Origin: Picocystis sp. L7
Taxonomy: Eukaryota > Chlorophyta > Picocystophyceae > Picocystales > Picocystaceae
NCBI GenBank assembly: GCA_020975725.1
Contig: QXJR01000023.1
Coordinates: forward strand, 310,001-374,000
Direction of reading: 5' to 3'
DNA length: 64,000 nt
Every line of letters starts with the position of its first letter. Position 1 is the stretch's first letter. The notes beneath the pieces are model-generated. The model ran no database searches and was not told the DNA's origin. It saw nothing but the letters and a program-made list of their open reading frames with translations. Of the stretch, positions 17,921 to 63,244 are shown in pieces. The position numbers and the translations under genes were made by a program.

Positions 17921-18402
17921 TGTTGAAACGAATGTTAATTCGTTTAGGGTTTACAGCTCTTCCTCCAAGACCAAGTCCTTCGACCAAGGTGAAGGGTCGA
18001 TCGACAGCTCGACATGTGGATCACCGACAACATGACCAGCGACGAACAAACGTCGTGCAAGAACGAATCATAGAATTCGACATACGACTGTCGAATACAC
18101 TCAAGTATACCAATGAGAATACATTGGACGGAATCGAACACCTGCGACTATTTAAGAGCGCAGTGCATGCCTTGTAATACAGAACTTTGACGAAGTCATC
18201 CCCTTCACACCAGAATTCTCTTGCCATCGAGCCAACGCATCGAAACTCGTTGTCGAAGGATAGAGAACACATTGAAGAAGCGGAAAAGGGTATCTATTAC
18301 CCAGCGCAGTAGCGAAAGACATACTGCACAGCGGTTCACAACCACGTCACAACAGTGCGTGGAACAGTGAGTTTAATCTCAGAAGAAATCGATATTTCAA
18401 CA
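17921..18402 (+). repeat. 5' LTR of copia element (482 bp)
   Basis: Begins TGTTGAAA and ends TTTCAACA, a perfect 8-bp terminal inversion. Matches 22325-22806 with no difference that I can see. The motif CTATTTAAGAG at about 18148 could be its TATA box. Confidence 0.95.
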
Positions 18403-18416
18403 GGTTAAGAGCCTTG
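18403..18416 (+). promoter_or_regulatory. primer binding site complementary to the tRNA-Lys(CUU) anticodon arm
   Basis: GGTTAAGAGCCTTG starts directly after the 5' LTR. Its complement CAAGGCTCTTAACC is the anticodon stem-loop of plant-type tRNA-Lys(CUU), from memory of that tRNA. Copia and Ty5 elements are known to prime from the anticodon region of a tRNA (initiator Met) rather than from its 3' end. Here the position fits that habit, but the tRNA appears to be lysine. Confidence 0.6.
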
Positions 18417-21400
18417 AAGCTATGAGCATAACCATGAATGATCCCACACAGCTTAACAGTGTTCCCTTACTAGATGGAGAAAATTGGAAGGACTGGTTCT
18501 TCAGAATGGAGAATCACCTTCGTCTCAATGGACTGTGGGCAGTCACTATGAGTGAACCCACCAAGGAGGAAAAAGAAAAAGATAAAACAATATTGCAGAA
18601 AATGGACTCAGCAAGATTCAGACTATTACAGTGTATTCAAAGTGATTATGTTGATAATGTGGTACATTGTGAAACACCTTATCAGATTTGGAAAGGTGTG
18701 AAAGACTTGTATGAAGAAACTGGATATGTGCGTGAACGAGCATTAAAGTCTGAATTACACAAGTTCAGAAAAGCAAGTGAAGAGAGCATTGAACACTACC
18801 TAAACAGGTTAGTACAAATCACAAATGGCTTGAGGAACATCGGTGTAACAATCACTGAAAAGGAAAAGACCACGATCGCATTGAATGCTTTACCTGCAGA
18901 GTATAATACTCTTACCACAATGCTTGACTTAGTGGGAGAAAAAAAGTCATTTGCTGAAATCAGAAGGATCTTGGTACGTGAAGAAGCTAAGCTCAGCATT
19001 AATGTGAGTTGCTTCAGCGGTGAACCTTCTCACACAACCCAAGCAATCTGTCCAATACCTGCACAAAAACAGAAACTGAAGTGTCAATACTGTCAAAAGA
19101 TCGGGCACGAAGTTGACACCTGCAGAAATATAATGAGAGACCACGGCATCGAAGGACCAGTTGTACCTAACAAGTATAAGACCAAAGGTAAGTTCAAAAG
19201 CAAAAGAAAAGAGGTACAAAAATTGATGTCCGCATTACCAGGCAAAGTCACATCAAAAACCAATGGTGACTGGATCATAGACTCAGGTGCCTCATGGCAC
19301 ATAACTAGAAACAAGAGTATTCTTGATGTCAGTACAATACGTAAGAAACAAACTGAAGTCCAAATCACAGATGGTACTATACTTACCTCTCAGCTCATGG
19401 GAACTGCAGAGTTGACCTTGAACAACCGTTCAAGAACAAAACTGATTCTGCAGAATGTACTCTACATTCCGGAAGCTTCGACCAATCTCATTTCTGTGCA
19501 TAGCCTGTGCAAGAGAGGCATGACAATAACGTTCAGCCCAGCAGGATGCAGAATCAAAAAGGGCAACATCATATTGTCAGTCAACAGCAAAATTGGAAAC
19601 TATTACTGCCTACAAGCCACTGCAAGAATATGGCATCAACGTCTGGGTCACGTAAACAGTGATCGTATTCGGAAACTCAGCTTACCATATAAGACTGATG
19701 AACCGTGTGAAGCCTGTATAACCTGCAAGCAAACCGCAGCAAAACATCAGCCAAAATATTACGAGCTTCGACCACTCGATCTAATTTACCTGGATGTCAT
19801 GGGCCCAATAACGCCGGAAACACCTGCTGGATTCACACATATACTGTCAGTATTGGATCACTCCACAAAATTTGGAATGGCTTACCTGATGACCAGCAAG
19901 GGAGAGGCTGCAAAGTACACCAAACAAGCTCTGACCAACCTGGAAAAACACTCTGGAGGTATCCAAGTGAAGACCATAAGAACAGATCGTGGTCAGGAAT
20001 TCCTAGGTTCTGACCTCAAGAAATACCTGGATGAACGTGGAATTCTGCACGAACTTACCGCTGGTTACTCACCTGAACAGAATGACGCTGAACGATTCAA
20101 CCGTGATCTCCGAGATCACGCCAGCACCATGCTTGCAGACAGCAACTTACCACCGAAATATTGGGGTGAAGCTGTCCGCAATTACTGCTATACCAGAAAC
20201 AAAGTACCACCATCCATCAATTCAGATAAATGTTCACCCTATGAGAAACTCACAGGAAAAGAACCAGTCTTGAAGAACCTACGTGTGTTTGGTTGCCAGT
20301 GCTGGGTGCTGCAACCCAAACACAAGCTAGCAAGCAAGTTCGAACCACGGAGCAAAGCAGGAATTTTTCTCGGATATGAAAACTCTGCCACTTACAGAGT
20401 ACTCGTTGGAAATAACCTGGTCATAAGCAGAAATGTCAGATTTAATGAACAGAAGATGGGTGAATACACACCGACATTATATGAGAAGCGTACCTTTGGT
20501 GAGCTGGTGAATTACCAACACCAGCCAATCCAGTGGGAGAATACCCCCACTGAATTGGCTGATATGGGTACTGATGACACCCATTCAGCTGCAAATGAAA
20601 ACCAAAGTGAAGCCAGTGATAAACCAACTCTGGAAACTACAGAAAATGATCAACCACTGGATGAAGAAACAAATTCTGGTCAGCGATATAATCTACGACC
20701 CCACCGTAGGACAAATTATACGGCATTCCTTACCAAAGAACTTCCAGATAAATTTGATGGCTACAAACAAGCCATGCGTAGACCAGACAGTGTAATGTGG
20801 CAAGAAGCAGTACAAACTGAACTCAACTCTTTGAACCAGATGAGGACCTGGACTTTTACTGATCTGCCAAAAGGAAAAAAAGGCACTTGGCACAAAGTGG
20901 ATATTCAACATCAAGCGAGATGGTCACAATAACATCACCAAGTATAAGGCTAGGCTGGTAGCCCTTGGATGCCATCAGAGACCTGGAGAAGATTACGACG
21001 AGATATATGCATCAGTTGTCAGTAAAACTGGACTCAGGCTTTTTCTAGCTACAGTAAATCAACTGGACTTACACCTTCACCAAATGGATGTAGAAACTGC
21101 CTTTCTAAATGCAGAGCTTGAAGATGAAGTATACTTGCAGATTCCCTACGGATTAATCGAAGAACAAAAGTCAGCTCAAGTTCTAAAACTGAACAGAAGC
21201 CTCTACGGACTGAAGCAAGCTCCACGAGCATGGTTTCAAGAACTGACCAAAACACTCACCGACCTTAATTTCATATGCATCCAACTAGACCAAAGTGTGC
21301 TGAAGTGCAAGGCAGACGGTACAATCATCTACATATGTTTTTATGTGGATGACATTCTAATCGCGAGTCTCGATCCAGAATCCATAAACCAGGTAAAGCA

Positions 21401-22324
21401 ATTGATCAAGAAAAAATACAAGATAACTGATATGGGAGAAGCAAAGCATTTTCTGGGAATGACCATCATAAGAAATCGACCTGAGAGAAAAATGATATTG
21501 CATCAAATCAACAAAGTCAGTAACTATGTACAGCAAAATGGCATTGAGTCCAGCAAGGTACAATCAATCCCAATCAACGTACCACTGAATGATGATTCAC
21601 AGGAGGAGGCAATCAATCACCTGCACTATCAGAAAATATGTGGTCAGCTTCAGTATTTGAGTGGCACAACACGGCCAGACATCTGTCATGCTGCATCTGC
21701 ACTGGCACGATACAATGCAAAACCAAAGAAAACACAGTGGAATGCTCTTCGTGGAACGCTGAAATACCTGCATGGAACAGAATCACACGCGTTAGTCTAT
21801 GAAGCAACAGATGAAGATGTAAGAGATCAGATCAAGATCATCACACATAGTGATGCAGATTATGCCAGTGACAAGGACAGCAGAAGGTCAAGGACAGGAT
21901 TTGTGATCCAGGTGATGGGATCACTGGTGGCTTGGCAGAGCAAAATGCAACCTACCATATCCATATCAACCACGGAAGCTGAATACCAAGCGGCTACAGC
22001 TGCAGTTAAAGAAACACTTTGGATCAAGAACTACTTGCAGCAACTACTGGAACCTAGAAACATATCTGCGAAGATATACATGGACAATCAGTCAGCCCTA
22101 CGATTGATACAAAATCCACAGTCCGTAACGCGTGCAAAACACATAGATGTACAGCATCATTTTTTGCGCGAACGTGCCATACGCGAAGAAGTGAAGTTCG
22201 AATACTGTCCGACTAATGAAATGAACGCAGACTACCTTACCAAGCAAGTTCCACTGGAGAAGTTCAAGATGTGCATCAGCAACATTGGAATGAAGAAACC
22301 CTCGGAAGCAGAGCTGAGTGGGAG

Positions 22325-22806
22325 TGTTGAAACGAATGTTAATTCGTTTAGGGTTTACAGCTCTTCCTCCAAGACCAAGTCCTTCGACCAAGGTGAAGGG
22401 TCGATCGACAGCTCGACATGTGGATCACCGACAACATGACCAGCGACGAACAAACGTCGTGCAAGAACGAATCATAGAATTCGACATACGACTGTCGAAT
22501 ACACTCAAGTATACCAATGAGAATACATTGGACGGAATCGAACACCTGCGACTATTTAAGAGCGCAGTGCATGCCTTGTAATACAGAACTTTGACGAAGT
22601 CATCCCCTTCACACCAGAATTCTCTTGCCATCGAGCCAACGCATCGAAACTCGTTGTCGAAGGATAGAGAACACATTGAAGAAGCGGAAAAGGGTATCTA
22701 TTACCCAGCGCAGTAGCGAAAGACATACTGCACAGCGGTTCACAACCACGTCACAACAGTGCGTGGAACAGTGAGTTTAATCTCAGAAGAAATCGATATT
22801 TCAACA
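22325..22806 (+). repeat. 3' LTR of copia element (482 bp)
   Basis: Same length and, by eye, same sequence as 17921-18402. It is followed at once by the second GTTCA. Its right end lies about 125 bp from the amylase ATG, so its promoter could read outward into that gene. Confidence 0.95.
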
Positions 22807-46757: not shown

Positions 46758-47239
46758 TGTTGAAATATCGATATCTCTGAGTTTAAACTCTGCGTTCCAC
46801 GCACTGTTGTGGCGTGGTTGTGAACCGCTGTACAGTATGTCTTTCGCTACTGCGCGGTATAATTGATCCTCTATCCTGCTTCTTCGACGTGTTCTTTGTC
46901 CTTCGACAACGAGTTTCGATGTGTTTGCTCGATGACAGGAGAATTCAGGTGTGGAGATGGTGACTTCGTCAAAGTTCTGTATTACAAGGCATGCACTGCG
47001 CTCTTAAATAGTCGCAGATGTTTGATTCCGTCCAATGTATTCTCATTGGTATACTTGAGGGAATTTGACAGTCGTATGTCGAATTCTATGGTTCGTTTTT
47101 GCACGACGTTTGTTCGTCGCTGGTCATGTCGTCGGCGATCAACATGTTGAGCTGTCGATCGACCCTTTTTCCTTGGTCTGAGGACTCGGTCTAGAAGGGA
47201 GAGCTGTAAACCCTAGACGAATTAACATTCGTTTCAACA
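46758..47239 (-). repeat. solo LTR of the 482-bp copia family
   Basis: Exactly 482 bp, TGTTGAAA to TTTCAACA, the reverse complement of the LTR at 17921 with a modest number of substitutions. Flanked by CCTGG on both sides (46753-46757 and 47240-47244), so it is a single insertion later reduced to one LTR by LTR-LTR recombination. It is older than the element at 17.9 kb and younger than the relic at 27 kb. Confidence 0.93.
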
Positions 47240-47660
47240 CCTGGTCCCTTTCTTTGATCTTTACCTGGTCCCTTTCTCTCACCTTTGCGTGTTCCATGCG
47301 TATCAGACCGCGAGGAAAAAGGACCATGGGGCAAGGCATCTTGCCTACCACCGCCAATTGTCCATGAATGCCATTGTACATCGGCTCCTCCAATTCAAGA
47401 TAGAAGCCCTGCCGCTTCCATAGCATTTATTCGTCTTCTTGGTTGCCGGAAGAAAGAAGGGACAAATCATTGGGGAGATCTCTAGCCTTGCAAGCTTACT
47501 CGCTTGTGCATTGACATCGATGTCGGATACCACCCGTCTCTCACTGAACGAAGGCCAACGAACATACAGTCGTTGGACTAGAATAGCAACCATCCGAGGA
47601 TAGTCCTTGTCTGTACCACCTTGTTCTTGTGTACATTTAACGTTCCATAGAGGAAAGTCG
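47240..47660 (-). pseudogene. left part of an unidentified reading frame interrupted by gypsy element 1
   Basis: The minus strand is open from the gypsy insertion (47660) to about 47345, with a normal-looking protein sequence (for example WPSFSERRVVSDIDVNAQAS). The same frame is open at 55241 on the other side of the element, and a single copy of the 4-bp target site keeps the phase. So the element entered an open frame. I do not recognise the protein and cannot say whether it was a host gene. Confidence 0.4.
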
Positions 47661-48302
47661 TGTTGCACGATGGGAGAATGCGTCCGTGAGGGTACACGTG
47701 ACTTTGGCGAAGGGTCCTTCTTTGGGAGGCTTCGTAGGCACTTTAGGGCGACTTCGGCGCCTTTCTCGTGCACGTGAGCCTCAGCCGAGCACTGTGTGAG
47801 GCGCGGATCAACGTGGACCTACGTCCTTGGTCGTCAAAAAAGTCTATGTTACTTCAAGTGAGGGCCCTACTAGTGGCCTCTCATGGAATGGGGATCAAGA
47901 GGTGGTTACTCCAGCCGTGGGGGCTGCCACACCCTCTCGTCCTCTTCAGATGGTCCCCGATTGGTTCCCCTGTTGGTCTTATCTGCTTGCACGCCCGCTG
48001 ATTGGTCGGATTCATTCCACGAAAGATTCGCCTTGATTCTCCTCGATCCGTTTCCAATCAGCAGGGTCTGTAGACCGGGTCAACCCAGGGTCAGTCGACC
48101 GTCCCTCCGGGTTATCCGTTCGGGTATCCCTTATGAAAGGGAACCCGATTTCCCGGGGGCAGCTCGACTCAATTTACATTGCTTGTCCCCTTCCGATATA
48201 AACACTGCAAATTGTAACATGGTATCCTAAGGACCATCCACAACCGTGGGTGGCTTAGTATCTGGCCTCCTTCGCAGGAGGTGGCCCCTGCCTCATGCTA
48301 CA
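47661..48302 (-). repeat. 3' LTR of gypsy element 1 (642 bp)
   Basis: Left-hand copy; on the plus strand it reads TGTTGCACGATGG to CATGCTACA. It contains GATATAAAC near its right end, a possible TATA-like site, and several short inverted repeats. Confidence 0.95.
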
Positions 48303-48354
48303 CTCTCCCCCCTTCCGGGAATTAGCTGCGCTAATTGAGGAAGTTGTAAACATA

Positions 48355-48515
48355 GGCAATGGGGTCGTACAACATTGACCGAATCTGCTCCTCCGAGTAA
48401 TAATCCCTTTTGCCATCAGTCCATAAGACTTCATACAATGTATTGCTGTTGTTCTGCACCACCCCTTGGTAGTATGCTGGGCTGTCATGTCCGTCCAAGT
48501 GAAAGAGATTTTGAA
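48355..48515 (-). other. Tudor/chromo-like C-terminal domain of gypsy element 1
   Basis: About 50 residues at the end of pol. The pattern YYQGVVQ, YEVLWTDGKRDYYSEEQIR (small barrel: G-x-V, Y-x-V-x-W/Y-x-DG, then E-E-x-I/L) is like Tudor-knot or chromo barrels that read histone or DNA marks. The second gypsy element ends in the same way. Assignment is by pattern only. Confidence 0.5.
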
Positions 48516-50289
48516 CCACCGCCCCAATCAAAGTTTGCAGTGGTGGTAGCTGTGGTCGGCGTCTTGTTTGGAAAGGTAACTTAGATGAGGTCCAGGTATT
48601 CACCATGATTGGGCAGGGTGACTGCAAGTATGCTGTCTGTTTGTGACTCTGTACTGCATTGTGGTTGGCAGGCGATATCCCCTGTTCTGGGATGCACCCA
48701 TTTGTTTCTTCAAGTGGTAGGAATTCTTCGAGCAGGACAGCTGTCTCGTCGACCCAGAAGTATCGTTGCGAGGGGTCGATCAGGTTGCTTTCGATCCAGT
48801 AGCGTACAGGTCTAGCAGGAAAGGCAGAGTAGTCACGCAATAGGTATCGCCGGATGCGATAAGGAAGTGTTTCTGCTTGCATTGCATCAGTGTGCCGGAG
48901 CGGTGCTGTTGCAGGTTGTAATTCTTCATCCATAGGGAACAAGGTCAAATCAGAATCTGTCCATTGCTCTAAGCGGACTGCATGAATCTGGTCTGCAAAT
49001 GCAGACCCTGGGGGCAGTTCCAGTTTGTAAGCCCCATTACTGAGTACCTGTTTGATGACGTAAGGGCCTACAAAGTAGGGGTCAAGCTTATTTTTGTCAG
49101 TTGGTCCTTTGAGGCCATATTGCACCTTGACCTTGTCGCCCACAGCGAAACTCTTTGGTTTACGATTTGATGAGAGGCTGATCATGCGCTCTGCATTTCT
49201 GGTCAGGTTATGACGGACAGCCAGGTAAACAGAACGATGTTTGCTGAGCAGATCAGCCACCCTCTGGTCATAAGTAGTCACTGTGGCGGATCGATCTTGC
49301 GCTGGCAAGGCTGGAAGCTGCAGGTGCCAAGGTAGTCTTGATTGGCAGCCGAACAGGAGCTCAAACGGCGAATATTTGGTCACGTCGTGGACAGTATCAT
49401 TGTATGCGTGAGCTGCTGCTTGTAAGTACAAATCCCATTGGTGCTTATCAGCACACGTTGTTCGCAATGTTTGTAGTAGCGTACGGTGTTGCCGTTCTGC
49501 CCCACCTTGTGATTGCGAATGGTACGGGGTACCTGTAGTATGGCGCATTCCCAAGGCTGCGCAGAAGGCACGGAACAGATTACGGTAGGCAGGTCCGTTG
49601 TCAGTGTGGATGTGCACCGGTGTATGGTATCGGTAAACCAACTGATCCATGAGGCATTGCGCTTGTCGATGCGCACTCCAGGTTGAGTGTATAGGTATGT
49701 AGACTGCATACTTAGTGAATCTATCCACTATGGTCAGTACTGCGTTATGCCCCAAAGCAGTCAATGGTAAGCCTTCCACCATATCCAGCACTATTGTATG
49801 GAATGGATAGGGGTAAAACCTGTATTCTGGACACAGAGGGATTAAGCGCGATCTGTTACTGGGTTTTTGTAGTTGGCAGATTGGGCATCGTGCCACAAAG
49901 TAATCGATATGAGATTTCATGTTTGTCCAGGTGAAATGTCTTCTTGCCTCGGTGTATGTACGTACAGCACCAAAGTGGCGTTGGTCGTGCAGCATGTGGA
50001 GCAGTTCCTGTCTTACAGAATTATCGGCGGGAACTATTAGCATACGCTGAGCGTTGTGACCTGTCTTGAATAGGAGCCCGTTATCCTGACGTATTCCTCT
50101 TGGAGGTGACTCCAGCAGTTGCTGATAGTCAGGGTCCTCCTTAGCTGCCACGCGTATCCTTTCGAGTATAGGAGGCGGGTCTGCAGTGATGGCGTTCGTA
50201 GTAAGTGGCGTATGCTGGCTGATGATAGACGCTATAGATCCACACACAGTCCGAGCAGGACTGCGGCCGGCAAGCGATCGAAGCGTCCG

Positions 50290-51190
50290 TGTGTGGTTTA
50301 ACCATCGAAGGAGCATGTGTGCAATCCACCCCACAGGGAATGCATTTCCACACATGCGGCGTCTACTAGCCTCGCTTACTTTGTTTGCTGCAGTGTCTCC
50401 TTCCTGTACTCCAACCAGCCTCTCGCGTTCGCTGATGGTCAGCGGCCGTAAGTCACCTTGCTTAGTGCGTACCCACGTGGATCGCGAACGGTCACTGTGT
50501 GATTCAGCGCTGGCCATCAATGTGGGGCACTTGGGTCTAGGCTGACCAATCGCGTCAAGCGGGACACTGGATTCAGGGTCCAAGCAATCCTGCCATGTAA
50601 GAGGTACTGCACATATCTTGTTGGATCTGTCGTTCATGGGTGGCAGTGATGTCCAGCAAAGCCTTGTGCGAGATTGGGCTCCGTACTGCGAGAGGTCTTC
50701 TGTTGTTGGATCTCCAAACCATTGTGAAATTTCGTCCAGGTGCGTCTGCAGATGTGCCGCAAAAGGAGTGCACTCAAGGACATAATGAGGTGATTTTACT
50801 CGCTGGCAGATTTTTGATACTGCAGTGAACAACTCACGGGCGTCATAAAGGCCCAGTGGTGGTTTGTTGGGATCTGTGTTTGCCCGCGAAAATGGTTGAC
50901 ATGGGACTCCAGCGATAATCAAGTGTACGTTCGGCAGCCGGCGGCGATGTACCAGATCAAGGACATCATTACCGTAGCGGAAGATGTCTTTACGGGTAAA
51001 AAGGCCAGGCCTCGATAGCCGTACTTGGTTGAATACCCTTTGAATTACGCTGCGGCAGTCTTGGTCCCTTTCCACTGCGATGTAATCGATGACATAATCT
51101 GCCCCAGGGGGTATCACCATTTCCAGGGCACGCAGAGTAGTGCCCATACCAGCGCACAGGTCCAGTATGCAGTAGACAGGTCCACTGGTC
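50290..51190 (-). other. C5-cytosine DNA methyltransferase domain inside gypsy element 1 pol
   Basis: About 300 residues between RNase H and integrase. Motifs in order: I (ILDLCAGMGTT, SAM binding), IV (AGVPCQPFSRAN with the catalytic Cys), VI (LECTPFA with the Glu), VIII (QSRTRLCW), the target-recognition stretch, then X (MCGNAFPVGW). This is the order of DNMT/Dcm enzymes. Methyltransferases in retrotransposons are known from few lineages (reported for a dinoflagellate and a charophyte alga, from memory of de Mendoza and colleagues). Confidence 0.92.
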
Positions 51191-54100
51191 ACCTTCGCGG
51201 AATGACGAGATAAGTAGTCTGCCCCTGTATTATGAATGCCTGGTCGATATTCCACGGTAAATGGGGCAAAGTAGGCCAGTTTCTCAATCCACCTCATTTC
51301 TCTGGGTGATAGCTGCTCTGTGGCTTTTGTATTTAAGAATTGACTGGCTTTGTTATCTGTGATGACAGTGAATTTTTGGCCAAACAGCAGGTGTCGCCAG
51401 TGCTGAAGGGCATAGAGTATTGCACAAGTTTCTTTTTCTGCTGGATGATAGTTTTGTTGGGCAGAATTGAACTTCTTAGACCAGTATTCAACTGGATGCC
51501 ATATTCCTTCATGATCCTCCTGCATGAGGGCTGCCCCCATGCCGATATCGGAGGCATCAGTTTCTACCCTGACGGCCTTGTCCTCGTCAAAAAGGGCTAG
51601 TACTGGGGGGTTATGTAGCGCCGAAACCAGGTTACAGTAAGCGGCTTCCTGTGGCTCTTTCCAGTAGGCTGCAAACCCATGTTTCAGTGAGGCCTGGTTA
51701 AGCTCAGTCAATGGTGCTGCAACTTCTGCATAGTGCGGGACGAACCGCATATAAAATTGGCACAATCCTAGGAAGGCCATATTTTCCCGTTGCGTAGTTG
51801 GACGAGGGAATTGCTGTATCTTTGTAAGCAGGTGATCTGTACATGCAAGCTGGCCATTCTGGATGCGAAAGCCCACCCATTCCAGGGTGCTCATAAAGAA
51901 ATGACATTTGGATCGCTTTAATCGAATGTCAGCCTGTTCGCACGTTGCAAAGAATTCTTCGAGGTGCTGGAAGTGTTGTTCCTTTGTTTCCGAGTGGATC
52001 AATATATCGTCCATGTAAACCTTAAGGTACAACAGATGCCCAAAAATCCTCTTCATCATCCGTTGGAACATTGCAGGGGCATTAGCTGCTCCCATTGGCA
52101 TTACTTTCCAAACGAACGAGCCAAAGGGTGTAACTACTGCTGTCTTGTCTATGTCCGCAGGGTCCATGCGGATTTGATGGAAACCATCCAGGGCATCCAG
52201 AGAGGAAAAGAACTTAGCACCTCTGAGATTCTGCAAGTAATCGTCGATGCGAGGTAGAGGATACCTGTCCTTTACTGTAACGTTGTTCAGCAGTCGATAG
52301 TCGAAAACAATACGCCAGCCCCCATCCTTTTTCGGGACGAGGATTACTGGCGCTCCCCAACTTGATCCTGCACATAGGTCCATCTTTCCGGCATGGACAT
52401 ACTCGCTGACCAATTCCTTCAGGGCCTTTTGTTGCGTTGGAGACAGCCTGTAGTAGTTTCTGTATTGGGGAGTAGCGTCTTTTTCCAGCTGAATTTTGAA
52501 GACTTCTCCAAGGACTCGCTCCGGAGGAAGTTCAGATCGCGGCTCAAACAAGCGTCGATACTGGTGATTGATAAGATGATCCAGCCGTGCACGATCACTG
52601 CTGTGTAGTTCCCATTCATCGGTGAGCCGAGTACGAATTTGCTGCAAATCTGTATCTTCTTGAATAACTTCGGGTGAAGAATCCAGTGGTTGTATCATGA
52701 GCAGCAGACAACCTGGTGTCTTCACAGCCTGTCGAGCCTCGCTACGAGGTACAATGAGATTCAACTTCCTCGAAGAGATGAATTGTCGATCTCCGTACAC
52801 GGAATACTTCTTTCCATTGCCGCTGCGAAGTACCATCTTGTGATTCTGCCAGTCCAGGGCCTCTAAGTGTTTATGGCAAAAAGCAACCCCAAGGATGCAG
52901 TCAAATGCTTCCAGAGGTGCTATTCCAAAGTTCATCTGCGCTTTAAATCCATCGATAGTAAACGAAGCAGTGATTACAGGTGCAGTATGGACCTCATGTC
53001 CCATAGCCACTGTAAAGTCAACAGTGTCGTTCGTATATTGCCAAGACAGACCTTTCGGGTCAGCCGCCTGCAGTTCCTTGAAGATGTTCTCGCTAAGGAA
53101 GCAGTGGCTGGCCAGAGTGTCCAGATAGGCCTGAGTTCTAATCCTTTTGGGTTTGATCCCCAAATATGTTTCTGCAGCCAGGAACTCCTGTCTAGGCCCG
53201 TGATTCGCCAATGAATGCAGGCAGACTGGTTCCCTACTGTTGTTTTCCGGGACCGCCGCAGATTTCGCTCCCGGCCCTGTCTCGGCGAAAGCAATCGCCG
53301 GACAGGGCACCATCAGTTTTTTGTGGCTCCCATTACGGAAGCCATCCTGCAGGTTGGGTGGTCATGCCCATAACGACGGCATCGTTGGCACAGACCATGC
53401 GACATGCATAGGTTCCTTTCCTCCTGGCTCAACTTGGCACCCAAGGGTCGGTGCGCGAGCTGAGTCTGTACCTTGGTAATGGAAGCCTTCTGCTCATCGC
53501 TTAGGTCGTCAAATCTCTTTCGCTGTCGCTGAATTGTTCCATTGGCTGGGTTGTTTTCCTTTGCTTGATGTGGCATCGCCGCTGCCACTGAGGTCACGTA
53601 TTTGCTAGGCCGGGATCGGCTTTCGTACTTCGTGCGGTCAGGTGGGAGGGGGTTTTTATACCGCTCGGACGGACCACCTTCTTTTCTTGACTGATCCACA
53701 GCTTCTCGCTCCATCTTGAAGATAATAGCCGCCAGATTTCCAGGTTGCATATCGGGGGTCTTGTCCACCTCAATGAGGTGGTTCAAATGTTTGTAAAGCG
53801 CCCTTTGTAGGTAGGCAGGCAGCCCATGCTGGAGACGCGCTGAAATATCTTGCTCGGTCAAAGCACGGCACACCGGTGAACTACTTGCATTGACCACAAA
53901 GCTGAGTTGAACCAATCTGTTCAAGAAATGCAAAGCATTTTCTGATTTTCTCATTCTTGTGGTATGGAACTCCCTCCAAGCTTCCGGTCCAGGATCTTGG
54001 CTTTGAAAAGTTCTTTTTAGGTATGCATAGAGGTCTTTGACTGATGTCAAGGCTTCGGGGTCACCCATGATCAGATTTTGGACCATCGACTTGGCCGTCC

Positions 54101-54598
54101 CGTCCAATGCTTGATTGATAGCCAACACTAGTTGTTCCTTCGGACGATCATACGCGTAGGCTTGACACCAACAAAGTACATCCCTAAACCAATAGGTAAG
54201 GGCATACGGGTTATCTTCAAGCTCCACACCCGTGAACTTGGCGGGCTTCTCGAGCGATACCTTTTGAATGTTCTTGGAGTCTTGAAGGGCGGTCCCGTAC
54301 AAGCTAGTGAGATGCGGGAGACCTTTTTCCTCCGAGAGCGCGACGGGCTGAGTAGTGGGGGCTTCTTCCCTCGTTTGCTCAGCTTCTTCAGGAGGTTGCA
54401 CTTCCTCATCCTCGGACGGCGTTGTTTGGAGAGCCTCAAGTTGGGCTTCAAGTTGTGTTATGCGCTCAAGGAGCGAGCTTCTTTCATTCCTCTCTTGCTC
54501 TAGCTCCCTTCGGAGAGTACCCATGCGTGTGGCATGGTCCGTTTCCTCCATGTTTGCTGAAGATTTTCAGCCTTCGTCCAAAATCCAAGCTTCGATAG

Positions 54599-55240
54599 TG
54601 TTGCACGATGGGAGAATGCGTCCGTGAGGGTACACGTGACTTTGGCGAAGGGTCCTTCTTTGGGAGGCTTCGTAGGCACTTTAGGGCGACTTCGGCGCCT
54701 TTCTCGTGCACGCGAGCCTCAGCCGAGCACTGTGGGAGGCGCGGATCAACGTGGACCTACGTCCTTGGTCGTCAAAAAAGTCTATGTTACTTCAAGTGAG
54801 GGCCCTACTAGTGGCCTCTCATGGAATGGGGATCAAGAGGTGGTTACTCCAGCCGTGGGGGCTGCCACACCCTCTCGTCCTCTTCAGATGGTCCCCGATT
54901 GGTTCCCCTGTTGGTCTTATCTGCTTGCACGCCCGCTGATTGGTCGGATTCATTCCACGAAAGATTCGCCTTGATTCTCCTCGATCCGTTTCCAATCAGC
55001 AGGGTCTGTAGACCGGGTCAACCCAGGGTCAGTCGACCGTCCCTCCGGGTTATCCGTTCGGGTATCCCTTATGAAAGGGAACCCGATTTCCCGGGGGCAG
55101 CTCGACTCAATTTACATTGCTTGTCCCCTTCCGAGATAAACACTGCAAATTGTAACATGGTATCCTAAGGACCATCCACAACCGTGGGTGGCTTAGTATC
55201 TGGCCTCCTTCGCAGGAGGTGGCCCCTGCCTCATGCTACA
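54599..55240 (-). repeat. 5' LTR of gypsy element 1 (642 bp)
   Basis: Right-hand copy. I count about three differences from 47661-48302. In the sense direction it begins TGTAGCATGAGG and ends GTGCAACA. Confidence 0.95.
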
Positions 55241-55480
55241 GTCGTAGGGATGAAAGAATCTATATACGCATTCTCCTCGATCCCATCGGCGAAGATTGTT
55301 GTGGATTTCATGTTCATGATCTCCATCATGACAAATAACGAAAGCAAGAGCAAGGTGAACATGCATGGAAGGACAAAGAATCAAGTGCAACTTGACCATG
55401 CTTCTTGAAATCAAACCACGGGACGCAAGGATTCCTCGCAATCCAATCAGTGTTGTATTCACATTTGACTAAAATCTAAG
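55241..55480 (-). pseudogene. right part of the interrupted unidentified frame
   Basis: 240 bp trapped between the two gypsy elements. The minus frame (for example CHDGDHEHEIHNNLRRWDRG) is open up to the insertion point of element 1. A splice-acceptor-like TTTTAG lies near 55470. Not recognised. Confidence 0.35.
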
Positions 55481-55705
55481 TGTTAGGAGCGAAGCTCCTT
55501 TCTCTTGAACTCCGCCGGTGCGGAGGAAGTTGCCTCGGAGGTTGAGGAGGCGCTTGGGAGGCGGCTCTACCTTCGAGGTCAAGATCAACTTAATTACAAG
55601 GGGTGAGAGAGAGAGGTTAAGTACTCCTCTCCATAGAGGAGTAACTATCCATTGAAGGGATTCAATGGGTGAGAAATCAAGGGGGGGATGCCCAGGTTCC
55701 TAACA
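55481..55705 (-). repeat. 3' LTR of gypsy element 2, hairpin-rich (225 bp)
   Basis: Ends TGTTAGGA and TCCTAACA. Contains perfect hairpins at 55486-55498 (GGAGC/GCTCC), 55510-55525 (CTCCGC/GCGGAG), 55622-55643 (TACTCCTC/GAGGAGTA) and 55649-55668 (CCATTGAA/TTCAATGG). The right-hand LTR has the same set. Confidence 0.95.
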
Positions 55706-55819
55706 CTCCCCAGCCCCAACACCGGCGTCCTCGACGGTTCTTGTACACTAAACAAATAGGTGGTAGGAGAAAACCTGCCCTCAGGTCAAAAACTCCTGCT
55801 GAAAATTTAATCTATCCTA

Positions 55820-55985
55820 GCGGAGGCTCGATAAAGGAGCCTGTCCAATTCTTGATGTGTGACAGCTTCTTCGTATCCGTCGGTGTAACGGATGGTGTAT
55901 CGTCCAGTACCAGTTTTGGGGGTGGCGACGACCTGTCCAGCGTAATACATCAGTAGTCCCTGTTCCTCAAAGCGTTTCTGCACTA
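55820..55985 (-). other. Tudor/chromo-like C-terminal domain of gypsy element 2
   Basis: About 50 residues with YYAGQVVATP, YTIRYTDGYEEAVTHQELD: the same G-x-V, Y-x-I-x-Y-x-DG and E-L pattern as in element 1. Likely a small chromatin-reading barrel; by pattern only. Confidence 0.5.
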
Positions 55986-57779
55986 TTCTGTGCAGATTTG
56001 CTGCAGGCAATGTTTGCAAACCTGGAAGTTTCACGGTGGACGCACGTCCAATAGCTGCTGCCCATGGAGCTTTGCCAGTCCACGTGTTCTGAACGATGGG
56101 TGATTATTGCTGAAATTTGACGCGTTTGTGCTTGAGAACTGCAGCCTTGTTGGTAGCAGTGATACCAATTTCTGGCAGGATTCCATTCACCTTTTCATAG
56201 ACTGCGACGTCGCTTATCAGCGCATCGTCTTCATATGCCCACCCCAATTCTTTGGCAGGGGTATCCCATTGAACATAGTATCTGGGTGGCACTGAGTTCC
56301 AGTTGCGCAGGAGGTACTTTCTGACAGGGTATTTCTGCGCTTGGTCGGTTGGTTGCGGTGACGTATCTGGCGGTAGCACTGCCGGTTCAGGTTGCTGAGC
56401 CAACGGAAACTTTGTCGGGTCTGCTGTCCAAAACTTTTCCAATGTGTCAGCATGCACAACGGGGTGTATGCTGCTGCCCTCCGGTAAGCGGATCTCATAA
56501 TTATTCTTGCCCAGAGAGCGGACAATTTCGGTAACCCGGAAGCGTGGCTGTAATTTATGCTGATCACTGCGTGTCGCACGTCCTCCCTGCAGCTTAGCAA
56601 TTTCTCCCTTTGCAAATGTTTTACTGGTTCGCGTACGGTTACTGAAATACTGCATGCGTTCCTCAGCCTTGGCGAGATTGATCGCCATGAGACGATATAT
56701 CGTCCTGCTGTATTTGCACAATTCAGCTACGTGCTTGTCGATTGTAAGGTTGCTGGGTCCGGGCAGCAAATAGAAGGGCATGGTTGGATGGCGACCCAAC
56801 TCTGCCTGAAAAGGGGTGACCCCTGTTGTTGCTCGCACAGTGTTGTTGGTCGCAAATTCTGCGATGTGCAGGCATCGATACCAATCGTCATCAGCACTGA
56901 AAGTATCTATAAGCGCGACCCGCAGTTGGTCTGCTAGTGTTGCGATTTGACGTTCCGTCTGACCATTAGACTGCTGATGGTAAGCAGTGGTGAGCATGGC
57001 CGTGACACCCAAGGTCTCCATGAAATCGCGCCAGTACGCGCTGGTGAATTTTGTGTCTCGGTCCATGATCAAATTGCTGGGGCATCCGCGTTTCGCGACC
57101 CAGTGACGCTCAAACTGAAAGGCTAATTCGGACGCAGTGATGCTGGTGGTGATAGGAATGTAGACGGTGTATTTGGTAAACCGATCTACGACAACCAGAA
57201 CTGCATTGTAACTGTGACTGGGCGGCAATCCCATTGCTATGTCCAGTGTTACCCAGCGGTTTGGGTACGACCCATGGTCTGTAGGATGGAGAATGGTCTT
57301 GCTGCGCTGCCGGCTGATTTTGCCCAGTTGGCAAGCATAACATTGTTTGCAGTAGGACTTGACGTCCTCGTGCATTCCAGGCCAGTAATATTGTCGCGTC
57401 AGCAGTTCAGTGGTTTTATGAACTCCTGGGTGACCTGCGTACGGCAAATCATGCGTGGTCATCAGGATGAGGTTCTTAACTGTGCGGTTGTTAGGAACAT
57501 ACAACCTTTTCTGCCCCTTGCTGACCTTATACATGATTCCATCCTGCTTCTGCAGAGTCTCTGTCTCCTGAAGTTTCTGATAATCTGCGTCCATCGACGC
57601 CGCTTTCGCAAGTAGCGCATCCAATTGGCTAATCTTACCAATGTCGACCGCTGTGAGTACTGATTGCAGAGGTTGCAAAGTAGTATTCTCAGCTTGGTAA
57701 AAAGGACTATCCTGTGCCCCGGGTGAGGGAAGGGGATAGCATGCTGCTGCTTGTACATCATCGTTGTCGACGGTGTTGA

Positions 57780-58624
57780 TCCAGATACGAATGATGGAGT
57801 TTATCCAGGAGACAGGGAACGCGTTGCCGAGCATACGGTTCCTGGTGGATTTATCCAACCCAGGAGCTGCTGTGTCTCCTGGCTGGAGCCCAACTAATAA
57901 TTCTCGTTCTTCGGGAGCCATCTGCCTGGTGATAGTGGTACCCTGTTGTTGAATCAAAGACTGACCATTTCTGACATTATGGGTGTTGTCCCAGTTGGCC
58001 ATCAGCGTGGGCGCTATTTCGGACGGCGCTGTCCAACCTGATTGAAGACAGGCCTGCCAAGTAAGCGGCTGGACAATTTCCTTCGACAGCGGCTGCGTAT
58101 TTTCAGTGTCGAGATTACTCCAAAGCAGCCTCGTGCGCTGCTGTGCTGACCACTGACTTAAGTCATGCTGGATAGGTTGCCCCAACCATTGCTGCACCAC
58201 TTCCAGATCTTTTTGCAAGTGCTGGGCAAATGGAGTGCACTCAACTGCACAAAAGGTAGCTCGGCTGTGCATAAGAACTTTATGCACAACTTGAAATAGC
58301 GAGCGGTCATCCTGCAATCCCTTTCCAGCAGGATTCGCTCTACTGAAAGGTTGGCATGGCACCCCCGCTACGATGAGGTCCACTGCAGGCAGTTTCCTGT
58401 TTACCAGGTCCTTAACGTCATGACCCAGGCGGAATATGTCCTTGCGTAGAAAGAGACCTGGACGGTCGCGCTGAACTAAACTGAAGATTCTCTGAATAAC
58501 AGTGCGACAATCTGCATTGTTTTCAACTGCAATATAATTGATGCGAACATGGTTTGGTACTGCATGGACCAGGCTGCGGATTACTGTTCCTGTCCCTGCA
58601 CATAAATCGAGCACAGTGAGGTGA
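57780..58624 (-). other. C5-cytosine DNA methyltransferase domain inside gypsy element 2 pol
   Basis: About 280 residues placed between RNase H and integrase exactly as in element 1. Motif I VLDLCAGTGTV, IV AGVPCQPFSRAN, VI VECTPFAQHL, VIII QRTRLLWSN and X MLGNAFPVSW are all present. It is clearly related to the domain in element 1 but diverged throughout, so the capture predates the split of the two families. Confidence 0.92.
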
Positions 58625-61600
58625 AGCGCAGAACGTCCGCGGCTCAGCGCATCGGGCGGCAAATTGAATTTTCCAGGCTTGTACACTATGGTGAGCTGGA
58701 AATCGGCGAGCCGGGGTAACCACGATAACTCGCGCTGCTGAAGCTTTGCTGGCTGCTTGTTCAGATAATGCACCAGTGCCTGATGGTCGGTGCGAACAAC
58801 GATCGGGATACCCAACAAGTAATGCCGCCATGTCTGCAATGCTAGGACAATTGCTAGCATTTCCAGTTCAGTGGTAGTGTAGTTTTTCTGCGCACCCTGG
58901 AGCGACTTACTCCAATAAGCCACTGGGTGCCAACCACTGCTGTGTTGTTGGAGCAACACAGCTCCCAGGCCAACATTAGATGCATCTGTGTGAAGTTCAG
59001 TTGGGTATCCTGGAGTCCAGAGCCTAAGAACAGGCTCAGAAGTTAATGCTAACTTCAACTCAACAAACGACGATTCTGCTTGCTCATCCCAACGAGCGGC
59101 CAAAGGTTCGGTCGTCCTAGTTAGGTCGTAAAGCGGAGCCGCCTTTTCCTGGAAGCGAGAAATGAATTTTCTGTAATAACCTGCCAGCCCCAAGAAAGAT
59201 CGCAACTGCGTTGGCGTCCTGGGTTGGGGAAATTCTCTCACCGCCCCAATCAGTCTGGGGTCCGGGCGTAACTGTCCCTCCCCAATTACATGCCCCAGGT
59301 ATGTAAGGTGAGTCTGAAACCAGGTGCTTTTTTGCATATTCAGTCGGAACCGGTACCGATCGCAAATCTGAAGCACCTCCTCAAGTGTGTCTAACATGAC
59401 CTGGAAACTGTCCGCGTAGATCAGCAGGTCGTCGAGGTAGCAAGCGACTGTGCGCTTGTCATATATGAGGTGATGAAATCTGGCATCCATCATGCGCTGG
59501 AAGGTAGCAACTGCGTTGCACATTCCCATAACCAACACCAGCCATTCAAATAGACCAAAATGAGTGACGGTGCCAGTGTACCTCACACTGTCCGGATGCA
59601 TGCGTATGTTGTAATAGGCTTCTTTCAGGTCTAGGCTTATGAAGAAGCGAGCCTGACTTAATCGATCCAGTAGTTCCTCAATGAGAGGTAGAGGGAAATG
59701 ATCCTTAACTGTAACATCGTTTAACGCTCGAAAGTCCACGACGTCACGATCAGGTCCATCCTTACGCTTCACCATGAAAACTGCAGATCTGCAAGTCTCG
59801 CTGTCGCTGGCCGCCCGTTGCATAATCCCACGCTTGCATCGATGTTCAAATCGCTTCTGTAACTCAATAGTTTGGTCAGCGGCCAAGCGTATCGGTCGGG
59901 TTTGTACTCGCCGTGACCCTCCCTCCGTGAGGACGATACGATGGTCGAATTCCGATGGCGGCGGCGGTGGTTCATCGTCACCTGGTGGTTGCATGAGGTG
60001 CAAATATTTGAGCAGCAGGTGTCTTAATTGCTGCTGCTGTATTGTGTCCAGCGACTCGGGCAGTTGTAGTCCCTCGACGGCCTCCCGAGTGACTGTTGGA
60101 CGGTTCACCTGGATCGCTCCTAGCGTCGTTACCTCTGCAGTGCTGTTGCGATTGATCTGCAAAGCTACCATTTCACAGGCAGGGGTACTGTGTCCATAAG
60201 TTTCTATCTGTTGGATATAAGCCCTGTCTGCTGATGGAACCACCCTACCCTTTTGCACCAGGGGCTGTAGTTCCCTGAACCATGGACTGCACGGTAGATA
60301 CGGTGTCAACAGGACCAGGTCCATAGGTGTCGAAGCTCGTAATTTCTGCGTAACCTGGGGCAGTAGTCTTAACGGCGGAACGCAGAGTATCGGTCCAGGC
60401 AGTTCTGTCCAGTTTTGTCCCAAAGCCTCAACAGGCTCCTCATAATTGAGTGTTGCCAGCCCCGCTGTTGCCGAGACAAACAGGGTGGTACTGAATGGCC
60501 CAAACTCCTCTTCCAAAGTGCTGAAAGAAGTTGGGTGCTGAGCAGTCAGCTCTGCAGTCGTTACGCTTACTGATGACAGACCGTTGACGGAGGTCGTCTC
60601 TACTGTCTTGTGTTTGTCCATGACCAGGGTTACGATCCGTCCGCGATGTCTCAACTGAATGGTGTTTCGCTCGATGTCCAGCGAAGCCTGAAGTTGTTTC
60701 ATAACATCACAACCCAGGATCATATCAAAGTTCTTTGGTAGATCCATAGGTATTACTTTTATATTTATCTGAATCTGTTTTTCCAACGGTAGATCAAACG
60801 GACCAAGAGAAACCGAAATCTGTAAAAGTTCGTTGGACGTGTGCGCCTGGCCGTTGGCGAACACGCTTCGCACAAAGTGCGCTTTGCTGGCAATGGTACC
60901 TAAAGCACTCAATTCTCTGTGAATATAGGAGCACCCTGCACCGGTGTCCCACAATGTTCTCAACTCTGTACCTTCAACATAGGAAGGCCTGATAAAGGCC
61001 AACCCTCCAGATTGTGCCAAATTCACCACAATCCGTGGACAGGAGGATGCTGGGGGGTTCTCCCCAGCCCCAATTGTCAAATCACTCAACTCAAACGCGG
61101 ACCGCTCCCTCGCATAGTCCACGTGGTAATTACTAATATCTGAAACTGTTTCATCGGAACGTGCGCCATGCACGGCTGCATTAAGGGGTATATCTTCAGC
61201 CCAATTTCCAGTTTCCTCAAAGAATGGAGACCCAGCAGGACTCACCTGGATGGTGGAGGCAGGAACAGGATCCTTGCCCTCACACTTGCTCAAAGGGGAA
61301 TCTGTTTCTATGCCCGCCGGGGTATCCCGTTGCCGGGGGCCTGGCCGTTTCCCGTTTCTGAACTCTTTCCCTTGTTGGGACAGTTGTTCGCAACATGATC
61401 GGGGCTTAAGCAACGGAAGATAAGGCACAATCCCAACTGCTTACACCGCTCGATCGCCTTTGGCGTTGGTTTTTTTCCTTTCCATTCAGCCTGGAACTTT
61501 TCTTGTTCGTCCGTGAGACGGTGCGACAACGCCGGCACAGCCGCTACCATCGACGGTCGCTCCATTTTCTGGGGGACGGCTTTTGCTTTACGCAGTTGAC

Positions 61601-62644
61601 GCTGATCGTCGCGTTCCCGCGCTTCCTTTTCGCGCGCGTAGCGCTCCTCACAATATTCCAAAAGCTCCAACCACTCCTCCGTAGTTTCCAACGGCCGCTC
61701 ATTTCCATCGAGCTTGTCCACCTCCAACTTCGCACGAAGTTGGTCACGGATTCCAATCCATACGCTACTGCGCAATTTCAATAACACCATCTCCTCACTC
61801 ACATGGGGAATGAGTTTACCATCTCCCAAATTCACCTTCCTTTGTAGCTCCTCAAGGTGTAGTAGGAAGTGGCGGACCGTCATGTCCCGCTTTTGGTAAG
61901 CCCTCTCGAATTCTTTATATGCGGCCTCGGATGAAGGACGGATACGGTGAAGCTGAACCAATAATGTTTTGAATGCTCCCAAATCTAGGGGAAGCGTCCC
62001 CTTCTCATAAAGAGAATCGAGGACGGCGCACTTGGGTCCTTGGATCATGTCAAGGAGGTCCACCACGCACTCCGATTCCTCCAAATCCGGTTGGCGGGCC
62101 TTGCGCCTTCCAAACTACCTTGTAACACTACCCCACCAAGCCTCAAAAGCCTCGGACAACGCGTCTTCCCCCATGTTATGGAAGGAAAAGCCCTTGGGCC
62201 GCACGATCGTCTCCATGGGTCCACGAGGGATGGACGGTATCGTAATGGCTTGAGTTGAAGTTCCATCTTGAACGGAAGAAGATGGATTACTTCTTAACTT
62301 CTCCAATTCTTCACCTTGTTGGATGAGTTGCACTTTCAATGCCTCCAACTCTTCTTTCAATTCTTCCATCCTTGTCATTCTCTCTTTTTTTTCTACCACT
62401 CAAATTCTATCTTTTGACACAGACCGTTCCAGAACACGTTGTTTATATCGTTCGACGCGTCTTACGACGCACGTTCCAACGACACGTCAAACGTTCAATT
62501 TGAGCCAGTAGCGGCAAAGTTATGCCCCAATGTAATTTCCACGAAACCCTAGGTGACCGGACGTGACGCAACAACCACGGACGCGTCCGCAAAGCTTAAA
62601 ACGCACGCGTACGTTCTCTCTCCGTGCGTGGTAGTCCTTTTTAC

Positions 62645-62869
62645 TGTTAGGAGCGAAGCTCCTTTCTCTTGAACTCCGCCGGTGCGGAGGAAGTTGCCTC
62701 GGAGGTTGAGGAGGCGCTTGGGAGGCGGCTCTACCTTCGAGGTCAAGATCAACTTAATTACAAGGGGTGAGAGAGAGAGGTTAAGTACTCCTCTCCATAG
62801 AGGAGTAACTATCCATTGAAGGGATTCAATGGGTGAGGAATCAAGGGGGGGATGCCCAGGTTCCTAACA
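62645..62869 (-). repeat. 5' LTR of gypsy element 2 (225 bp)
   Basis: Same 225 bp as 55481-55705 with about one difference, including all four hairpins. Followed by the second CTAAG. Confidence 0.95.
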
Positions 62870-63244
62870 CTAAGCGAGAAATTTTGGTAGTAAAAAATGC
62901 ATCATTAGGAAAGGATGCGAGCTATCAATAGAGGAATTCGTTTTCCGAAAAAATCCGAATCGCGTACATTGAAACCATCGGTAGGTGACCGTTGCCCCGA
63001 AGTTTGACTACGACGTTTTTTGGAAAACCTGGGTTTGCGTACCAATTATGTACGTAGTTTCGGTTTTTCCTCGTCAACAACTGCAAAGAATAGGGAACGA
63101 CCCGACTAGAGTAAAAGTAGGGACGGGTCTAGCTTTGCCGTATGCTATGAGGAAAATCGCGTAGAAAGGCTGTTTCGATGATCCTCGTCGATCTTCGCCG
63201 TGTGGAAGCCTGAGTCAGAAAGGCGGGAAGGGCCACAGGGAACG
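62870..63244. other. spacer before the transposase gene
   Basis: About 375 bp, moderately AT-rich at the left. No terminal inverted repeat of a DNA transposon could be picked out without the other end. Confidence 0.4.

Follow-up and report, generated by a model that had tools for sequence, protein, structure and literature searches.

The window analyzed here, a 64,000-nucleotide stretch of the genome of the alga Picocystis sp. L7, holds two adjoining Ty3/gypsy retrotransposons on the minus strand, E1 and E2, each with a predicted methyltransferase (MTase) domain inside pol. E1 (47661-55240) is a full-length element, as defined by its LTR pair and target-site duplication (TSD), its gag and pol frames, and its Pfam matches. 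The 5′ and 3′ LTRs (54599-55240 and 47661-48302, respectively, minus strand) are both 642 bp long, have TG...CA ends and, trimmed to these ends, differ at exactly three positions. The LTRs are flanked by the TSD GTCG, the left copy of which (47657-47660) becomes the 5 bp AGTCG if the last A of the LTR is counted, and the right copy of which lies at 55241-55244; short duplications of 4-5 bp in E1 and 5 bp in E2 thus accompany the TG...CA LTRs. A purine-rich tract on the minus strand, GGAAGGGGGGAGAG (48303-48316, located by eye), immediately precedes the 3′ LTR and is the probable polypurine tract. The usual TGG... tRNA complement was not found by eye beside the 5′ LTR.

The gag frame of E1 encodes 412 amino acids (53313-54551, minus strand) and has no Pfam match; a CCHC-like knuckle, CQRCRRYGHDHPTC, can be read by eye near its end. 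The pol frame, which is in the −1 frame relative to gag, encodes 1660 amino acids in a single uninterrupted stretch (48331-53313, minus strand). Directly 5′ of the gag stop lies the heptamer A AAA AAC in the gag phase (53316-53322, minus strand, phase assigned by hand), which is the usual type of signal for −1 frameshifting and is the probable frameshift site of E1. Along Pol, all on the minus strand, are found the reverse transcriptase (RT, residues 326-484, 51862-52338, PF00078), the RNase H (residues 551-682, 51268-51663, PF17917/PF17919), the MTase (about 50290-51180), the H2C2 zinc-binding domain of the integrase (residues 1097-1152, 49858-50025, PF17921), and the rve integrase core (residues 1171-1266, 49516-49803, PF00665). 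The order RT - RNase H - integrase given by Pfam is that of Ty3/gypsy elements (Metaviridae), and for the integrase part of the profile the nearest solved structure, ranked first with E 6e-62, is the Ty3 Gag-Pol 7q5b. No Pfam match to a protease was found in pol; at the expected retropepsin site, residues 65-69, E1 has by eye DTLAS, compared with DSLAS in the database protein P0017 and DTGAG in E2. Judged from these features, E1 is a young, complete-looking Ty3/gypsy retrotransposon that appears to have been recently mobile. A previous sequence-only reading had described the element as looking whole, with about three LTR differences in 642 bp and with an MTase in frame between RNase H and integrase, and the LTRs, the TSD, gag, the uninterrupted 1660-codon pol frame and the Pfam order agree with this description.

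The Pfam DNA_methylase match (PF00145, E 2e-8) spans residues 716-845 of the E1 Pol and extends no further than the first third of the profile; the later C5 motifs were read in the translation and in an alignment of copies. In the standard C5 numbering, the motifs appear in the order DLCAG (I, about 51142-51162), GVPCQPFS (IV, with the Cys of PCQ at 50899-50901), ECTPFA (VI, with the Glu at 50773-50775), AQSRTR (VIII), LTISERERLVG (IX), and GNAFPVGW (X, with the GN at 50344-50349). The complete set of C5 motifs proposed in the sequence-only reading, like the location given there for the domain, is thereby confirmed, with the modification that motif VI has EC instead of EN. Motif VI usually has the form ENV, the residue following the Glu being Asn in other C5 enzymes, as is also seen for DNMT3A in the PDB profile match. 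In that search, for which the profile was built from seven MTase domains, DNMT3A was found first (E 1.4e-9), followed by DNMT3B (E 6.1e-9), both over profile positions 81-306 of 321, with weaker and partial matches to M.HhaI, DNMT2, and DRM2.

The tree of the MTase domains (46 rows) places 37 elements, the DIRS-Dnmt3 proteins P0187 and P0191, and a partial DNMT3A row on one side with support of 99/97, and the host DNMT1, CMT, and DNMT2 together with the free-standing database enzymes P0189, P0190, and P0192 on the other; the tree has long branches, for which the tool gave a warning. A grouping of the E1 domain with methyltransferases acting on substrates other than DNA does not occur, and both the search and the tree point to the DNMT3 side. 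Taken with the 51-domain alignment described below, these results assign the E1 domain, as far as the sequence can tell, to the C5 DNA methyltransferases of the DNMT3 group. The domain fills a joint between RNase H and integrase that measures 301-354 residues in 30 Gypsy proteins with the MTase and 3-180 residues in 23 without it. A scan of viral contigs, considered as a possible source of the MTase, gave 15 loci with 23-35% identity over parts of the domain.

Querying the database with the E1 MTase region gave 21 proteins, of which 19 carry PF00145 and are 46-82% identical to E1 (one of them matched over half its length), the remaining two being 30% identical. The clade of P0020 gains six members, P0143-P0147 (1643-1690 aa) and P0149 (1075 aa). 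One EukProt pol with an MTase, P0005, labelled Pavlova lutheri (a haptophyte), is 70% identical and nests inside the E1 clade, a placement that would reflect either contamination or horizontal transfer between haptophyte and green algal genomes.

E2 (55481-62869, minus strand) has LTRs of 225 bp with one difference (55481-55705 and 62645-62869) and the TSD CTAAG (55476-55480 and 62870-62874). Its pol encodes 1774 amino acids (56104-61428, minus strand) in the order RT-RNase H-MTase-integrase, the MTase lying at 57700-58638 on the same strand. As in E1, pol is in the −1 frame relative to gag, and the gag-pol overlap contains a heptamer in the gag phase, G GGA AAC (61347-61353, minus strand, phase assigned by hand). 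E1 and E2 are 48% identical in the MTase, 39% in RT, and 34% in the integrase.

In the 20.5-Mb host genome, MTases of this kind are found at no fewer than 155 separate places, some of them partial. The E1, E2, and L005 MTases, L005 being a third type, were each used as a query, and the best 124 of 190, 127 of 189, and 128 of 184 candidates, respectively, were scored; the figure of 155 comprises all 124 E1-type matches, 22 E2-like and 9 L005-like ones, the remaining entries of the E2 and L005 lists being excluded; it is a lower bound, because only the best candidates were scored and because seven further places that were checked lie outside the count. Of the E1-type matches, 109 of 124 are stop-free, as are 23 of the 28 matches, E1 included, that were scored (of 437 candidates) when the complete pol served as the query against this genome. 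For 120 of 150 scored integrase zinc fingers (203 candidates), an MTase match lies within 2.5 kb. The earlier statement that MTase capture by retrotransposons is rare is therefore consistent with the literature, as far as its accessible text goes, but does not describe this genome, where the combination is common.

The ages of the copies vary. Among twenty 10-kb loci that were taken (L031-L050), L032 and L033 are host genes; of the other 18, L031, L035, and L036 have LTRs of 651-731 bp without any difference, the LTRs of L038 differ by 10.8%, and no LTR pair was found within the 10-kb loci L037, L045, and L049. The range of divergence shows that the insertions span from new to old. The copies are also unevenly placed, contigs C3 and C4 (11.6% of the genome) holding 68 of the 155 listed MTase places (binomial p 7e-24); such element-rich contigs are reminiscent of outlier or mating-type chromosomes. 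On the same two contigs, rows of copies on one strand occur at C4:1048242, 1055391, and 1062540 (spacing 7149) and at C3:344967 and 351991 (spacing 7024), which are probably head-to-tail elements with shared LTRs.

To assess conservation, 55 MTase domains covering at least 280 profile positions were collected, 51 of which are distinct; they come from stop-free frames, such that most broken copies are left out of the following counts. All 51 keep the Pro-Cys of PCQ, the motif VI Glu, the two Arg residues of motif VIII, and the Gly-Asn of motif X. The Glu of motif VI is followed by Cys in 49 of the 51, giving EC instead of EN; Asn occupies this position in P0020, P0021, P0143, P0145, P0147, and P0149.

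The dN/dS ratios depend on the depth of the pair. For the MTase they are 0.15 for E2 vs L018, 0.14 for E2 vs L017, and 0.34 for E2 vs L021 (dS 0.09), while RT/RNase H gives 0.05-0.06 in the same three comparisons. The pair E1 and L034 has a ratio of 0.08 at a dS of 2.3, which is near saturation. Two young pairs show 0.26 and 0.27 for the MTase and 0.30 for the integrase, the 39 of 458 domain pairs with dS of 0.02-1.2 have a median of 0.29, and recently split copies range over 0.23-0.67, the maximum being found among the youngest. On the basis of this dependence on depth, the MTase is seen to be under purifying selection across the lifetimes of the subfamilies, more loosely than RT, and young copies decay.

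It is useful to compare these elements with the known systems. The capture of DNMT3 by a Gypsy element is already known: the accessible text of a 2018 study (PMC5890265) describes Dnmt3 domains that are carried by a Gypsy element in Klebsormidium and by DIRS elements in Symbiodinium and are under purifying selection. According to the same text, the DIRS versions methylate CG de novo in yeast, and the SymbioLINE and KnitGypsy-Dnmt3 versions gave no methylation there, a result that its authors call inconclusive. The part seen of PMC12344493 reports DNMT3 in LTR (written Copia) and DIRS elements of streptophytes and dinoflagellates. That of PMC6338049, which cites these cases, suggests antiviral roles and lists green algae among the hosts of retrotransposons with adenine or cytosine methylases, the types not being separated, so that the mere presence of such an element in a green alga is no novelty. 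In the literature covered, mostly outside subscription papers and supplements, we found no report of the C5 type in a chlorophyte or of exchange between Gypsy lineages, and the accessible parts of PMC12477816, PMC9998398, and PMC12542154 hold nothing closer. What is distinctive here are the ordinary LTRs, the very high copy number, the EC of motif VI, and the hints that the cassette passes between lineages.

The closest relative in design is KnitGypsy-Dnmt3 of Klebsormidium nitens, which, in the accessible part of its published description, has like E1 a Dnmt3-type MTase in the Gypsy Pol frame with the key residues kept and a Ka/Ks below 0.2, comparable to the value of about 0.15 in our deeper pairs. 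The same description sets it apart by a DIRS-like repeat structure, where E1 has plain direct LTRs, and by a streptophyte host. SymbioDIRS-Dnmt3 of Symbiodinium shares with E1 a DNMT3-group MTase inside a retrotransposon polyprotein, but, as far as its description was accessible, it has a tyrosine recombinase in place of an integrase with H2C2 and rve. In P0187 and P0191, which fall on the same side of the MTase tree as E1, the MTase by eye precedes the RNase H-like end, and they are 22-25% identical to P0020 over a part. To our knowledge, DIRS elements have no DDE integrase. The name of P0191, Skav223371, we take to stand for Symbiodinium kawagutii. Other DIRS elements also have a methyltransferase as an accessory domain, but it is a Dam-like enzyme, of the adenine type and structurally unrelated to C5 enzymes, in the parts seen of PMC5890265 and, for the accessory domain, PMC6338049. 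A further modification-related acquisition, involving an unrelated m6A RNA demethylase domain, is described for orchid Ty3/gypsy elements in the accessible text of PMC9289625.

We propose, with reasonable though not strong confidence, that E1 is a recently mobile Ty3/gypsy retrotransposon whose captured DNMT3-type MTase is made by frameshifting as part of Pol, is borne in the particle, and methylates the element's own cDNA or the insertion site. Pol, including the MTase, would be produced by −1 frameshifting, and the MTase would enter the particle along with RT and integrase. There it would methylate cytosines, probably at CG, in the new double-stranded cDNA or in the DNA of the insertion site, and E1 is thus likely to methylate its own DNA copies, as the sequence-only reading had suggested. 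The mark could let the cDNA pass as host DNA; alternatively, a mild methylation maintained by the host DNMT1/CMT could cause new copies to be tolerated. The cassette, which spans diverged subfamilies, is old in these elements, and template switching may have carried it from one Gypsy lineage to another.

The last step can be evaluated from the identities among 30 pol proteins, the pairs of which are not independent. We give even chances to the possibility that E1 and E2 inherited the MTase from a common Gypsy ancestor without any exchange, the identities reflecting unequal rates or a slowly evolving core. The RT tree is in line with such inheritance, since it holds the 30 MTase-bearing rows together against 23 others (100/98). 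A single group of MTase rows is not rejected by the integrase data (AU p 0.48), nor is the topology of the MTase tree by those of RT (AU p 0.15). On the other hand, the MTase data reject the RT order (AU p 0.009), although the groups for the tests of RT and MTase orders were named after the trees had been seen, and in the free integrase tree E2 and L005 fall among MTase-free rows, the MTase rows forming one group in 0% of 200 bootstraps. The RT of E1 is as distant from that of E2 (39% identity) as from that of an MTase-free Gypsy element of a plant (42%).

Within clades, RT is better conserved than the MTase in every pair (190/190 in the E1 clade, 21/21 in the P0020 clade, and 1/1 in the E2 clade, together 212/212), and the integrase is so in 183, 10, and 1 pairs, respectively (194/212). 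When the E1 clade (P0017 included) is compared with the E2 clade, the order is reversed, the MTase being above both RT and integrase in 42/42 pairs, with averages of 48% for the MTase, 37% for RT, and 33% for the integrase; this is the largest such gap and counts against common inheritance. The gap is not confined to these clades, since the MTase is also above RT in 113/140 pairs of E1 and P0020 (34 vs 32%) and in 14/14 pairs of E2 and P0020 (34.5 vs 26%), so that a slow conserved core could make part of the pattern. At middle depth, between the E1 clade and P0017, the domains are about equal (MTase 50.5%, RT 52%, integrase 48%), the MTase being below RT in 16/20 pairs. Such a core fits less well with the way the identities fall: from P0017 to E2, RT drops by 15 points (52 to 37%) and the MTase by only 2 (50.5 to 48%), whereas the step from E2 to P0020 takes the MTase down by 14 points, to 34%. 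The L005 type shows no such gap to E1 (RNase H 43, integrase 36, MTase 39).

Recombination between subfamilies, a further point against purely vertical descent, is seen directly in L031 and L048, whose identity is 91-99% along a stretch of about 1.5 kb and 45-80% outside it. We put forward, tentatively and at somewhat below even probability, that the DNMT3 cassette is a mobile module that entered at least two deeply split Ty3/gypsy lineages by gain or by swapping, each time at the joint between RNase H and integrase and probably through template switching, and that it forms the commonest design of the scored Gypsy elements in this alga. Exchange is weakened by the deep comparisons, which favor the MTase too, and by the RT and integrase trees, which show none.

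We have also considered that the domain no longer methylates DNA and instead either modifies RNA or has a structural or nucleic-acid-binding role in Pol, such as that of a spacer or of a module that binds cDNA. The EC of motif VI in 49 of 51 domains, which could weaken catalysis, and the lower conservation of the MTase within clades are consistent with this alternative, as is a same-genome Gypsy family with a different joint. This family, represented by L066 (C4:119370-120180) and the nearly identical L067 (C11:604250-605050), has frames of up to 2672 aa (L066) and an RT that is 51-52% identical to that of E1, and hence nearer to it than the RT of E2. At the RNase H-integrase joint it has about 190 residues without the catalytic MTase motifs, and no recognizable MTase was found there in either of the copies read. 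With 2 of the 46 MTase rows (P0017 and E1), the joint residues of L066 outscore each of the 200 shuffles; with the other rows they do not, and with E2 they fall below the shuffle mean; hhalign assigns them a 5% probability, and hmmsearch places them below some shuffles. We do not claim kinship from the weak likeness of the segment to the N-terminal part of the MTase, as the profile methods give no significance; the segment is possibly a dead relic. The loss of methylation is in our view improbable, because a spacer would have no need of the other catalytic residues, which are kept in 51/51 domains, and because the MTase is under purifying selection.

Returning to the proposed methylation of the element's own DNA, the target could instead lie in trans, that is, in host chromatin, rival elements, or DNA viruses, the MTase being kept because it helps the host or blunts rivals. 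The many copies in one small genome would accommodate such action, as would the published speculation on defense by accessory domains in the accessible text of PMC6338049, and the Copia element of the window is CpG-poor as well. We nevertheless consider such action unlikely, since a benefit to the host leaves unexplained why each subfamily keeps its own conserved copy. Pol enzymes, moreover, normally act inside the particle.

Finally, the idea that a false assembly join or contaminating DNA inserted the MTase gene into E1 is scarcely credible, as no support for it was found, the family occurs at the 155 or more places counted above in the same genome, the 23 stop-free pol matches show that the E1 frame is no join, long open frames cross both MTase borders, and 19 of 21 database proteins carry PF00145 in pol.

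For a geranylgeranyl-reductase-like protein encoded in the window, one database protein matches at 99% identity, and the next named matches, of up to 72%, come from chlorophytes (Volvox, Pleodorina, Coccomyxa, and others); this one gene and the set of DNMT genes make a chlorophyte the likely host. The host has methyltransferases of its own, namely, a DNMT1-like gene (L001) with two BAH stretches, a chromomethylase-like gene (L033) with a chromodomain and a BAH domain just below the Pfam cutoff, a gene read as DNMT2 (L002), and a PWWP methyltransferase (L032); no free-standing DNMT3 was found among the loci read, which are part of 121 PF00145 matches. The observed/expected CpG ratio is 0.70-0.83 in 13 MTase elements and 0.67 in one Copia element without MTase. 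In 14 LTR pairs, those of L034, L043, and L044 being excluded, 13 transitions fall at 1162 CpG positions and 34 at 7191 others, a 2.4-fold difference. CpG decay was considered as proof of methylation and dropped, since the Copia element without MTase is equally CpG-poor and CpG depletion can thus not decide the matter.

Why a retrotransposon should carry a silencing enzyme of the host type has been an open question since 2018, the Gypsy case being without activity data. With its 20.5 Mb, its 155 or more copies from several subfamilies, among them copies whose two LTRs do not differ, and its DNMT1-like and CMT-like host genes, the present genome should be more convenient than Symbiodinium for finding out whether insertions are methylated from the start. 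Should the cassette indeed move between Gypsy lineages, its spread by drift alone would be unlikely, and retrotransposons would carry de novo methyltransferases from one algal genome to another.

Two other repeats of the window can be mentioned here. A Ty1/copia-type element (17921-22805, plus strand) has identical LTR regions (483 bp, no difference), the TSD GTTCA, and a coding stretch in two frames (18422-20932 and 21084-22439); an inverted copy resembling its LTR (90%) lies at 46776-47167. A tandem repeat array starts at 31473, with several frames open (SQPIYPNP-like) and 53 overlapping 300-nt copies.
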